Shown here: piece after piece, positions 24,149 through 29,928 of the stretch
Position numbering within the stretch: the stretch's first letter is position 1
Layout: every line of letters starts with the position of its first letter
Translations under genes and position numbers: made by a program
NCBI RefSeq assembly: GCF_018729255.1
Contig: NZ_CP076061.1
Location: 434,001 to 498,000 of the forward strand
From: Cupriavidus sp. EM10
GTDB taxonomy: Bacteria; Pseudomonadota; Gammaproteobacteria; Burkholderiales; Burkholderiaceae
Direction: 5' to 3'
DNA length: 64,000 bases
The notes under the pieces: generated by a model
Told to the model about the DNA's origin: nothing
What the model saw: the letters and a program-made list of their open reading frames with translations, nothing else
Databases searched by the model: none

Positions 24149-24341
24149 GCGCCCCTTCCTTTCTTTCGTGCCCCGAGCACTGCCGCACCATGCCGCGCCA
24201 GCACACTTGTTACCGCCGCGCATAAGTGTTTGTGCGCCGGTGCCGTTCCATAGCTGGCTTGCCTCACCTACATTTCCAGCCATCGACCACGTCGGTTCGA
24301 TTGGCAAGAAGCCAAGGTCAACCAGATCCAAGAGGCAAATC

Positions 24342-25068
24342 ATGAGCAACACGCAAACCACCCCGCAACGCAAAAGGTCGCCATCATCACCGGCGCTTCA
24401 CAAGGCATCGGCGCAGAACTGGTCAAGGCCTATCGCCAGCGCGGCTACCGCGTCGTGGGCACGGCGCGCAGCATCCAGCAACCCGACGACGCCAATATCC
24501 TCGCCGTGCCGGGCGACATCGCCGACCCCGACACCGCCCGCCGGGTGGTTTCGCAGGCCATCGAGAAGTTCGGCCGCGTCGACGCCCTGGTCAATAACGC
24601 CGGCATCTTCATCGCCAAGCCGTTCACCAGCTACACGGCGGAGGACTACGTCACCAAGACCGGCGTGAACCTGGCCGGCTTTTTCTACATCACGCAACTG
24701 GCCATCGCCCAGATGGAAAGCAGGGCAGCGGCCACGTGGTGAGCATCACCACCAGCCTGGTCGACCATGCGATCCAGGGCGTGCCGTCGGTGCTGGCGTC
24801 GCTGACCAAGGGTGGCATCAACTCGGCCACCAAGTCGCTGGCGGTCGAATATGCCAGGCGCGGCATCCGCGTGAACGCCGTGGCACCTGGCATCATCAAG
24901 TCGCCGATGCATGCCCCCGAAACCCATGAAGCGCTGGGTGCGCTTCACCCGATGGGCCATATGGGCGAAATGAGCGATATCGTCGAAGCCGTGCTGTTCC
25001 TGGAGTCGGCACCGTTCGTCACCGGCGAGATCCTGCACGTCGACGGCGGCCAGAGCGCGGGCCACTAA
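24342..25068 (+). pseudogene. SDR-family oxidoreductase; two frameshifts in this sequence
   Basis: Three reading-frame pieces together make a standard 242-residue SDR: MSNTQTTPQR, then KVAIITGASQGIGAELVKAY and NNAGIF, then GHVVSITTSLVD to GEILHVDGG. The breaks are at the AAAA run 24372-24375 and the GGG at 24723-24725; one added base at each restores the frame. The catalytic tyrosine of YxxxK is not present: the equivalent residues are ASLTK, a replacement seen in one SDR subgroup. AGAGG precedes the start. The gene follows a LysR regulator. Substrate unknown. Confidence 0.8.
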
Positions 25069-25242: not shown

Positions 25243-27102
<1,860 letters not shown>

Positions 27103-27122: not shown

Positions 27123-27159
27123 CCTGCTTCCGCGCGACATTGGGATGTGCGGAAGCAGG
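27123..27159. terminator. Bidirectional hairpin between convergent genes
   Basis: A perfect 11-base-pair stem CCTGCTTCCGC / GCGGAAGCAGG with a 15-base loop lies between the E3 gene and the convergent unknown gene. No T-tract follows on either strand. Confidence 0.5.
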
Positions 27160-27177: not shown

Positions 27178-27888
27178 TTAGTCGGATTCTTCCGAGCGCG
27201 AGCGGACCATTTCTTCGAACACCTCCCGCCCCTCGCCGACATGGCGCCAGAAACAGGCTTGCCAGGCAGTATTGGCATTCGCCAGAAACGCCTCCTGCTT
27301 GTCCTTGTCGAGCGATTCCCAGTAAGGCGCCCAGTACACGAGCCACCAGTACTCCATATTGCCTTGCATCATCCCGAAAGCAGATTCGGCCAATTCTGGA
27401 AAGGCGACCCACGGCGCCGGCGGCGCAAGGTCCATCGCAATCACGCGTTGGCACACTTCCACGTCGTTGGTGGAAATTTCCGCACATATGCCGTTGAATT
27501 CTTCATAGGTATGAAAGATCAAGCGGTTTCCCGCGTCCGTGCGCCCTGCATATGTGTTTTTCCCAACCAGGGCATAGCCAGAAGTCACGACTTCACCCAA
27601 TGCCTGTAATTTGTCCGGCAGCAGATGCATCCCGGTGCTGACAGCTTCCATAGACCTGTCCCGCAAATCCAGAAACCGAGGGTAGGCGCCCAGCGACTGG
27701 AAAGCCTCTTCGTCTAGCGGACGGCCAAACATGGCCTGTACGTCTTCAAGGGAAATGCCGCATATCGCGCGATAGGCACGCTGCAGAGACCGCTCCCTTT
27801 CGCGACGAGCCCGTTTCTCGGGATGCATGGGCCTGAGATCGCCGAGCGTTTCGAAAATCTTCTCCAGTATCGTTCTTGCGCTACGCAT
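27178..27888 (-). CDS. Unknown protein, distal copy of a tandem paralogue pair
   Basis: 236 residues, not recognised. It has no signal peptide or membrane helix. Visible blocks, shared with the gene upstream, are LRPMHPEKRARR, VQAMFGRPLDEEAFQSLGAYP, FLDLRDRSMEAVSTGMHLLP, GKNTYAGR, RLIFHTYEEFNGIC, EISTNDVEVCQRVIA, PWVAFPELAESAFGMMQGN and a Trp/Tyr-rich YWWLVYWAPYWESL. By eye the two proteins are about 60% identical, so this is a duplication. Base composition is less GC-rich than in the flanking genes. Tandem divergent copies downstream of a small membrane protein recall immunity gene arrays, but no toxin is evident. It could equally be a host-specific accessory gene. Confidence 0.72.
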   Translation of the reverse strand: MRSARTILEKIFETLGDLRPMHPEKRARRERERSLQRAYRAICGISLEDVQAMFGRPLDEEAFQSLGAYPRFLDLRDRSMEAVSTGMHLLPDKLQALGEVVTSGYALVGKNTYAGRTDAGNRLIFHTYEEFNGICAEISTNDVEVCQRVIAMDLAPPAPWVAFPELAESAFGMMQGNMEYWWLVYWAPYWESLDKDKQEAFLANANTAWQACFWRHVGEGREVFEEMVRSRSEESD

Positions 27889-27932
27889 TCAAAAACTCTT
27901 GGCAAAGTAAGGGGCCATTGTCGTCAGCCGCA

Positions 27933-28649
27933 TCAGATTTTTGACTTGTCACCGTTTTCCCGCTTTCGGTAAAGCTCTCGCATGGATTCGTCGGCCTCGA
28001 TGCGACTTCGCCACGGTTTGTTTGCACGAGAAAGATATGCCTCCCGGCCCTCCGGACTGAGCGATTCCCAGAAAGGGTCCCAATACTCGTTCCACCAGTA
28101 TTCGATATTGCCCATCAGCATTCCAAAAGCGGTCTCCGCCAACTCTGGAAAAGCCACCCACGGCTCCAACGGCTCCAGGTCCAGCGCGATCACGCGCCGG
28201 CAGACCTCCACATCGTTGGTGGAAATGCCGACGCAAACGCCGTTGAATTGCTCATAAGTGTGGAAGATCAGGCGGTTCCGGGGATTGTCACGCGCTGCGT
28301 ACGTGTTCTTGCCGATAAGGTCATAGCCGCGCGTCACGACATCGCGCACTGCCGATATCCTCGCGGGCAGCAAATGCAGCCCCGTACTGACCGCTTCCAT
28401 GCGCCGGTCTCGTAAATCCAGAAACTCGGGATAGCCTTGCAGCGACTGGAATGCGCCGTCGTCCAGTGGACGGCTGAACATGGCCTGCACTTCCTCCATA
28501 GACATGTCGCACACCGAGCGATAGGCGCGCTGCAAGGTTCGCTCCACATCGCGCCGGAGCCGCCGCTGCGCCCGCTTCTCGGGATCCATGGGTCTGAGTT
28601 CGCCGAGAACTTCAAGGATCCTCTTCAATGCTTTGCGAGCGCGGCTCAT
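27933..28649 (-). CDS. Unknown protein, proximal copy of a tandem paralogue pair
   Basis: 238 residues, not recognised, and about 60% identical by eye to the gene 44 bases downstream. The same blocks are present: LRPMDPEKRAQRR, VQAMFSRPLDDGAFQSLQGYP, FLDLRDRRMEAVSTGLHLLP, GKNTYAAR, RLIFHTYEQFNGVC, GISTNDVEVCRRVIALD, PWVAFPELAETAFGMLMGN and YWWNEYWDPFWESL. The N and C termini differ most. Its ATG overlaps the stop of the 58-residue membrane protein gene (ATGA), so the two are translationally coupled. No known catalytic motif was found; the fold looks mixed helical and cytoplasmic. Function unknown. Confidence 0.74.
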   Translation of the reverse strand: MSRARKALKRILEVLGELRPMDPEKRAQRRLRRDVERTLQRAYRSVCDMSMEEVQAMFSRPLDDGAFQSLQGYPEFLDLRDRRMEAVSTGLHLLPARISAVRDVVTRGYDLIGKNTYAARDNPRNRLIFHTYEQFNGVCVGISTNDVEVCRRVIALDLEPLEPWVAFPELAETAFGMLMGNIEYWWNEYWDPFWESLSPEGREAYLSRANKPWRSRIEADESMRELYRKRENGDKSKI

Positions 28650-28822
28650 TCGAACACCCTTTCAGCCCAGTAATCCGCACCGTAATAGCCCATCGCTCCA
28701 AAAATCACTCCCCCGATCAGCCCCGTGACAATCAGGCCCGGCCCGGTCACCACCCCATACGTCGCCGTTACGGAATCACCTAGCTTCGCGCCGTTCCTCA
28801 GCGCATATCTGATGTCTGCCAT
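28646..28822 (-). CDS. 58-residue glycine-rich membrane protein
   Basis: A short gene encoding MADIRYALRNGAKLGDS, then a hydrophobic glycine-rich span (VVTGPGLIVTGLIGGVIFGAM, about residues 24-44) and the tail GYYGADYWAERVFE. One membrane helix with glycine-zipper spacing is likely. It overlaps the next gene by four bases, which supports that it is real. A possible ribosome site (GAGGGG) lies before the ATG. I do not recognise the family. Its place ahead of two paralogues suggests that it works with them. Confidence 0.65.
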   Translation of the reverse strand: MADIRYALRNGAKLGDSVTATYGVVTGPGLIVTGLIGGVIFGAMGYYGADYWAERVFE

Positions 28823-28831
28823 TCTGGCCCC

Positions 28832-28945
28832 TCAGTAAAGTGAGGAGCCATTCTGGTCAGCGCCTGGTATCCAGGTAAATCGCAATCCCCTTGAATCGCG
28901 TGCATCGAGGTCAAGGAAGCCGGCATTGGCAGAAACGCCAATCAC
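28832..28945 (-). other. 37-codon reading frame, possible truncated gene end
   Basis: From a GTG at 28945 that overlaps the AraC stop (GTGA), the frame reads IGVSANAGFLDLDARDSRG to GADQNGSSLY and stops at 28832, nine bases before the 58-residue gene. It is either a real coupled micro-gene or the C-terminal remnant of a gene cut where the block joins the AraC gene. The composition looks protein-like, but no homologue is recognised. Confidence 0.3.
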
Positions 28946-29928
28946 TCCACCGCCGACACAAATCGCTTGCGATACTCCGCGGGCGTAACGCCCACCACGC
29001 GCAGGAATGCCCGGCGCAGCGTATCGACGCTGGAGAATCCGCACTCGGCGGCGGCCTGCTTGGGCGCGATATTGCCCTCTTCCAGCAGTTGCCGGGCGGC
29101 GGTCACGCGTGCGGCTTCGACCCAGTTGGCCGGCGTCACGCCCACTTCGTCCTGGAACAGGCGCGACAGGTGCCGCGCGCTGACGCCGATTCGTGCGGCC
29201 AGGCTGGGTACGTCGTGCGCGGCGGCGGGATGAGCCGCCACCCAGCGTTGCAGTTCCTGCAAGGCGGAGCGGTTTGCTGCGGCGGGGGCCTGGCGGCGGC
29301 TGAACTGGGCCTGTCCGCCTGGTCGTTTAAAGAACATCACCAACTGGCTGGCCACTTTCAGGGCGATGTCGCGGCCCAGGTCTTCCTCGATCAGCGCCAG
29401 CGCCAGATCCATGCCCGCTGTCACCCCGGCCGCCGTGCGGACCTTGCCGTCGCGCACGTGGATGGCATCGGCGTCCACGGTCACCTTGGGGAAGCGCGCC
29501 GCCAGCGCATCGGCGGCGGCCCAGTGGGTGGTGGCGCGGCGGCCGTCGAGCAGCCCGGCTCCCGCCAGCAGGAAGGCGCCGCTGCAGACCGATCCGTAAC
29601 GCCGCGCTGCGGGCGCCGTCCGGCGGATCCATTCGAGCACGAGCGGCTCGGCGGGCGCGTCCCCTGCATGAGGCGCGCCGGCTACCAGCAGCGTGTGAAA
29701 GCGCGACGGCGACGCGGCCGACACATCGTCCTCGATCACGATATCGGGCAGCAGCCGGGCGCCTGACGATGCCGTAAGTGGCCCGCGCCGCACCGCCACC
29801 ACCCTCATCTGGTACGCCGTGACGCCTGCCTGGACGTTGGCTTCGGCAAACACGTCCAGCGGGCCGGATACGTCCAGCAACTGGACGCCTTCGATGGCCA
29901 ACAGGCCGATGGTACGGGTAGCGGGCAT
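28942..29928 (-). CDS. GlxA-type AraC-family regulator (DJ-1/PfpI domain + HTH)
   Basis: 328 residues. The N-terminal DJ-1/PfpI-like domain (RTIGLLAIEGVQLLDVSGPLDVF to about residue 190) has the nucleophile-elbow-type cysteine in GSVCSGAFLLAGAGLLDGRRATTHW, described in two parts: VCSGAF and ATTHW. The C-terminal part is a double AraC helix-turn-helix (SLAARIGVSARHLSRLFQDE and AAAECGFSSVDTLRRAF). Such regulators sense small nitrogenous or aldehyde metabolites and activate neighbours. It is divergent from the HD-domain gene, with a palindrome in between. Downstream on the same strand lie the unknown genes of the 27-29 kb block. Confidence 0.88.
   Translation of the reverse strand: MPATRTIGLLAIEGVQLLDVSGPLDVFAEANVQAGVTAYQMRVVAVRRGPLTASSGARLLPDIVIEDDVSAASPSRFHTLLVAGAPHAGDAPAEPLVLEWIRRTAPAARRYGSVCSGAFLLAGAGLLDGRRATTHWAAADALAARFPKVTVDADAIHVRDGKVRTAAGVTAGMDLALALIEEDLGRDIALKVASQLVMFFKRPGGQAQFSRRQAPAAANRSALQELQRWVAAHPAAAHDVPSLAARIGVSARHLSRLFQDEVGVTPANWVEAARVTAARQLLEEGNIAPKQAAAECGFSSVDTLRRAFLRVVGVTPAEYRKRFVSAVE

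Follow-up and report, generated by a model that had tools for sequence, protein, structure and literature searches.

Extracts from the T6SS literature describe several settings in which immunity genes outlast their effectors. In Vibrio cholerae, T6SS clusters contain arrays of orphan immunity genes that were kept after loss of the effector (PMC5361080), and an orphan Rhs immunity protein of Serratia marcescens Db10 protects against the effector of another strain (PMC10539506). A further extract describes the opposite outcome, an effector and its immunity gene being lost in frame together, and also reports tsi4 without tse4 in eleven isolates (PMC12594252). ADP-ribosyltransferases are mentioned in a structural survey of T6SS pairs, and the word Cupriavidus is absent from the extract of it (PMC11148199); a Chromobacterium Rhs ADP-ribosyltransferase is also on record (PMC13324451). 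No paper on the toxin and immunity families described below is among the matches listed from the open-licence literature. Orphan T6SS immunity genes with effector remnants are already known; the toxin/immunity family and the deletion scar described here are new members of that kind.

We analyzed a 64,000-nt stretch of DNA from Cupriavidus sp. EM10 (the window), in which a minus-strand block of three ORFs of 58, 238, and 236 codons lies between an AraC gene and lpdA (Table 1). The block is very probably a disarmed T6SS PAAR–toxin–immunity module, in which the ends of the PAAR and toxin genes are fused and two immunity paralogues are left. It resembles the V. cholerae arrays in that immunity genes are kept, in arrays, after the effector; there, however, a new effector–immunity module displaces the old effector, whereas the Cupriavidus site shows an in-place internal deletion and no new effector (PMC5361080). 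With S. marcescens Db10 it shares an orphan T6SS immunity gene, protection by the Cupriavidus paralogues being putative, but the Serratia toxin is an NADase Rhs protein of the main T6SS cluster and the Cupriavidus toxin is a free, PAAR-linked protein at a lone site (PMC10539506). In Salmonella SAIDI-1, too, orphan immunity genes are grouped in an island that contains small remnants of effectors; it is an acquired interbacterial defense islet holding a mosaic of unrelated immunity genes, in contrast to the two paralogues of one family found here (PMC7400221).

Table 1. Features of the block and its flanks, in window coordinates
Feature	Position	Strand	Basis
58-aa scar ORF (PAAR start plus toxin end, glycine-zipper helix region)	28646..28822	-	ORF list; DNA alignment to L007 and L004
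Immunity paralogue A, 238 aa	27933..28649	-	ATGA overlap with scar ORF; relatives directly behind full-length toxins
Immunity paralogue B, 236 aa	27178..27888	-	ORF list; similarity to paralogue A and relatives
Deletion junction, 5-bp CGGCG, present at both parental breakpoints	28789..28793	-	Alignments by eye; 5-nt overlap of two BLAST pieces
Leader element copy 1, 5' of scar ORF; precedes PAAR gene in relatives	28838..28861	-	Element search
Leader element copy 2, between immunity genes A and B	27905..27928	-	21/25 identical to copy 1
AraC/DJ-1 (GlxA-type) regulator, flank, outside module	28942..29928	-	Pfam HTH_18 and DJ-1_PfpI; adjoins lpdA in empty sites
lpdA-like gene, convergent flank, outside module	25282..27102	+	Adjoins AraC in empty sites

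The layout given by an earlier sequence-only reading of this DNA is borne out: the three ORFs are found on the minus strand, the 58-aa ORF overlaps the proximal paralogue as ATGA, and the two paralogues, estimated by eye at about 60% identity, agree at 145 of 235 positions (62%). A 44-nt gap separates paralogue A from paralogue B. The block had also been described as less GC-rich than its flanks, and its GC content is the lowest in the window, at 0.574, 0.566, and 0.591 in the 1-kb segments starting at 27001, 27501, and 28001, versus 0.632–0.725 in all others. Neither paralogue had been recognized, and none of the searches changed this: Pfam and NCBIfam gave no match above the curated cut-offs, and PADLOC and PHROG no significant match. 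Neither the immunity family nor the toxin family of the relatives is covered by a curated family.

The suggestion of a defense cassette found no backing in a link to anti-phage systems. For the three proteins of the block, PADLOC returned a single line, a type II methyltransferase at E 0.049, which places none of them in a known anti-phage system; the 58-aa protein, like the paralogues, matches no curated family above cut-off, and its one PHROG match is weak (E 0.0023) and of unknown function. A 37-codon frame that overlaps the AraC stop as GTGA does exist but is not conserved, and it is probably no gene: among five leaders it spans 37 codons in two (the window and G107) and 16 codons in strain D384, and the leaders of G202 and G306 have this frame without the GTG start.

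Some peculiarities were noted in the lpdA flank. The lpdA gene contains an in-frame stop at 25906–25908 that divides it into 208 + 394 codons of one frame, its relatives being single frames of about 600 codons; the stop is either a nonsense mutation or a sequence error. The SDR gene beside it (24321–25068) matches its relatives in three pieces in different frames, with breaks that are either frameshifts or sequence errors. Between immunity gene B and lpdA, a perfect 11-bp inverted repeat spans 27123–27159; similar hairpins with changes on both sides are seen by eye in G107, G202, G178, and G306, and the repeat is possibly a shared terminator.

An armed form of the site is present in strains U2 (G202, locus L004) and 25mfcol4.1 (G107, locus L007), where AraC is followed by a PAAR gene (~198 aa), a gene for a 292-aa protein, and copies of 236–242 aa. 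In G089, a PAAR–toxin–immunity trio adjoins lpdA, with the AraC gene on another contig. The PAAR gene is directly upstream of the toxin gene in all three genomes, and the PAAR_motif family PF05488 scores above cut-off in both PAAR proteins scanned (L004, E 3.6e-10; L047). The C-terminus of the 292-aa toxin is glycine-rich and contains a glycine zipper, and the first immunity gene overlaps the toxin stop. The U2 module is divided between two contigs, one running from AraC to the second immunity copy and the other holding immunity copies and lpdA. The tandem immunity array of U2 (L082, L083) is broken by a contig end: C26 holds two immunity matches and C23 three, of which two are partial and lie at contig ends.

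The toxin has no Pfam family. Residues R44, S101, and E168 are invariant in 52 of 52 relatives, in the order R-S-E and with a spacing like that of ADP-ribosyltransferases, whose motif we take this to be. The model of the toxin has low confidence (mean pLDDT 64.7); its best structural neighbors are ADP-ribosyltransferases, all with Z < 8, and Foldseek with the same low-confidence model gave no E value below 0.18. No ADP-ribosyltransferase chain was matched in a PDB sequence-profile search with the toxin, and one of the 52 family members has a weak match to DarT (E 0.091). The residue pattern and the structural neighbors suggest that the toxin is an ADP-ribosyltransferase.

Among the top neighbors of this weak model are the Rhs ADP-ribosyltransferases TreX and TreTu (with TriX and TriTu), where, going by the PDB titles, an antibacterial-type ADP-ribosyltransferase fold stands beside an immunity gene, as the toxin with its putative fold of this kind does. 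TreX and TreTu are Rhs C-terminal domains, whereas the Cupriavidus toxin stands alone, carries a C-terminal glycine zipper, and has no sequence match to them. A glycine zipper attached to a T6SS toxin is described in an extract on Tde1, where the zipper is N-terminal and the toxin has a nuclease (DNase) domain, in contrast to the C-terminal zipper of the Cupriavidus type (PMC10240207). Relatives of the toxin number at least 104 proteins at E ≤ 0.001. Three of them (P0110, P0111, and P0112) have an N-terminal LysM domain, and the toxin part therefore also occurs with another N-terminal domain.

Alignment of the window DNA to L007 yields two pieces, the first of which stops ~10 codons into the PAAR gene, while the second starts 48 codons ahead of the toxin stop. 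Between them, 1314 nt of L007 (1300 nt of L004) are missing, and the pieces overlap by 5 nt at CGGCG. On these alignments, the 58-aa protein reads as an in-frame fusion of the first 10–11 PAAR codons and the last 48 codons of the 292-aa toxin gene. Its last 48 residues are identical to the metagenomic toxin P0045 at 45 positions and to the U2 toxin P0039 at 37; the ORF occurs once in the genome and has the same stop–start overlap with the immunity gene as the toxin of the armed relatives. A truncated toxin had been guessed to lie at the AraC junction; such a toxin is indeed present, but it is the 58-residue protein itself. That the deletion is an artefact of assembly or sequencing is extremely improbable. 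The interruptions of lpdA and the nearby SDR gene, both whole in relatives, would fit assembly errors as well as decaying genes, but sequencing errors do not usually take the form of a 1.3-kb loss at a 5-bp repeat, none of the three remaining ORFs is interrupted, and separate deletions are present at this site in two other genomes.

Because the leader and the ATGA overlap are retained, the role most likely left to the fused ORF is that of a translated leader, coupled to immunity gene A, rather than that of an active toxin. The 58-aa protein could instead be a working product, for example a small membrane-active peptide that the paralogues counteract, since the zipper is retained, with four GxxxG motifs and a best 19-mer hydropathy of 1.86, and since the N-terminal zipper region of Tde1 alone inhibits growth of E. 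coli, according to the extract (PMC10240207). We regard this as very doubtful, however: D384 keeps its immunity gene with only the last 10 toxin codons and the zipper gone, several toxin-less sites were seen without a zipper ORF, and the immunity family tracks the whole toxin.

Fourteen of the 60 genomes searched in the genus carry the AraC gene (E ≤ 1e-120). AraC and lpdA stand side by side with no module between them in five (G196, G069, G336, G002, and G131), the site is occupied in five (the window's genome G000, G306, G107, G178, and G202), and no lpdA was found in the stretch examined beside AraC in four (G351, G249, G089, and G159). The sequence-only reading had named conservation in all close relatives as the pattern that would speak against it, and the five empty sites run counter to such conservation. 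With G089 included, six sites are occupied, of which three are armed (G107, G202, and G089) and three disarmed (G000, G178, and G306). In the window, the deletion extends in frame from about PAAR codon 10 to toxin codon 245. In strain D384 (G178), a member of Cupriavidus like U2 and 25mfcol4.1, 630 nt are lost in frame within the toxin (codons 73–282) and PAAR is whole. In G306, one deletion runs from a PAAR stump with a frameshift to toxin codon ~249, and a second loss has taken about two thirds of the immunity gene, counted from its start. The three disarmed sites, judged by the codons removed, represent different toxin-removing deletions; two in-frame cases among three lie within what would be expected by chance. 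With ~10 PAAR codons and 48 toxin codons left, the window is a remnant of PAAR effector–immunity modules and not a member.

A first protein search with the paralogue family returned 11 proteins, including those of the window, and genome searches placed the family in Cupriavidus and other Burkholderiaceae. For a family-wide count, toxin and immunity profiles were run against 398 genomes of the Burkholderiaceae. The toxin profile matches 21 genomes, nine with a full-length toxin, six with a broken or partial one (G000, G178, G306, G214, G205, and G330), and six with weak glycine-zipper look-alikes, which were left out of the toxin count. The immunity profile matches 21 genomes in 31 rows, counted as 24 sites: nine with a full-length toxin, six with a broken one, and nine with none seen, so that 15 of the 24 have no full-length toxin. 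The sites with none seen are G345, G362, G175, G315, G357:C7, and G089:C1, together with immunity fragments in G069, G164, and G205:C3. Across the 398 genomes, each of the nine full-length toxins has an immunity match no more than 77 nt away. Immunity genes occur without toxin in this sample, but no full-length toxin occurs without immunity, which fits the prediction for an effector–immunity pair. The proposal that the block is an immunity cassette whose toxin is missing is thus far well supported. In G000, whose genome is estimated to be 97.5% complete, only the scar matches the toxin, and we class the window paralogues as orphan immunity genes, their homologues adjoining the cognate toxin in nine of nine cases.

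Several members of the family have unusual contexts. At G315 and G345 the immunity gene stands behind other small genes, which we presume by eye to resemble a lysozyme-type and a Tae4-type effector. At L048 (G205:C2), a toxin fragment is followed by what looks by eye like a transposase coding sequence and then by an open immunity ORF, apparently another route of toxin loss. The metagenomic protein P0002 looks chimeric, its first part being like immunity A and its last part like immunity B; it may be the partner of toxin P0045, because the longest contigs of both are 7627 long.

Neutral decay, in which the toxin was lost first and the immunity genes are unselected leftovers, is somewhat unlikely. 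It would make G306, with most of its immunity gene gone and its PAAR stump frameshifted, the next stage; immunity fragments in G069, G164, and G205:C3 are in line with it, and the two in-frame fusions could be luck. Against it, both window copies are open at full length, with dN/dS of 0.21–0.35 in pairs with relatives, values that are mostly older than the deletion and do not date the loss. Full-length immunity ORFs also persist at the toxin-less sites G178, G214, G205:C2, G315, G345, G362, and G357:C7, and open immunity ORFs do not date the deletion either. Loss of immunity can follow toxin loss, because the immunity gene was also lost in G306.

In relatives, this site holds the leader, a PAAR tip protein, the 292-aa toxin, and one or more immunity genes. 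In the window, a deletion of ~1.3 kb at the 5-bp repeat has removed all but the ends of PAAR and toxin, joined these in frame, and left both immunity paralogues intact. The toxin would have been an ADP-ribosyltransferase that rode on the PAAR tip when fired into rival bacteria, the glycine zipper aiding its passage across the inner membrane, and the immunity proteins would neutralize it, probably by binding. The retained immunity may now protect the cell from relatives still firing the toxin. A T6SS apparatus in the same genome is indicated by one match to the sheath gene TssB/VipA (PF05591, E 6.5e-55), and six further PAAR genes score above cut-off elsewhere in G000.

The similarity score of the two leader copies is reached in 0 of 500 shuffles, and at ≤3 mismatches the element occurs at exactly two places in the 6.66-Mb genome. 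In U2, D384, 25mfcol4.1, and G306 it is found once per locus at ≤4 mismatches, 5' of the PAAR gene, and the second immunity gene of G107 has none. The end of the 44-nt gap resembles the last codons of the toxin at shuffle level only, and no promoter-like site was found. Because the element precedes both immunity genes, two collapsed modules are suggested; gene B may be the final remnant of a second module or the owner of a duplicated regulatory element. As a tentative and rather unlikely extension, two tandem modules would once have existed, both toxins would have been lost by separate deletions, each immunity gene ending up with a copy of the original leader in front of it, and selection would have preserved the in-frame fusion, since translating it through to the ATGA overlap would promote expression of immunity gene A. 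What was once a toxin gene would then serve as a translated leader for its own antidote.

The analysis brings to light an unnamed, probably ADP-ribosylating T6SS toxin family together with its immunity family. At one chromosomal site in one genus, the empty, armed, and three separate disarmed states form a natural series. It is difficult to test whether orphan immunity genes are kept by selection as protection or are leftovers, and matched states at a single site in related strains permit a direct test.
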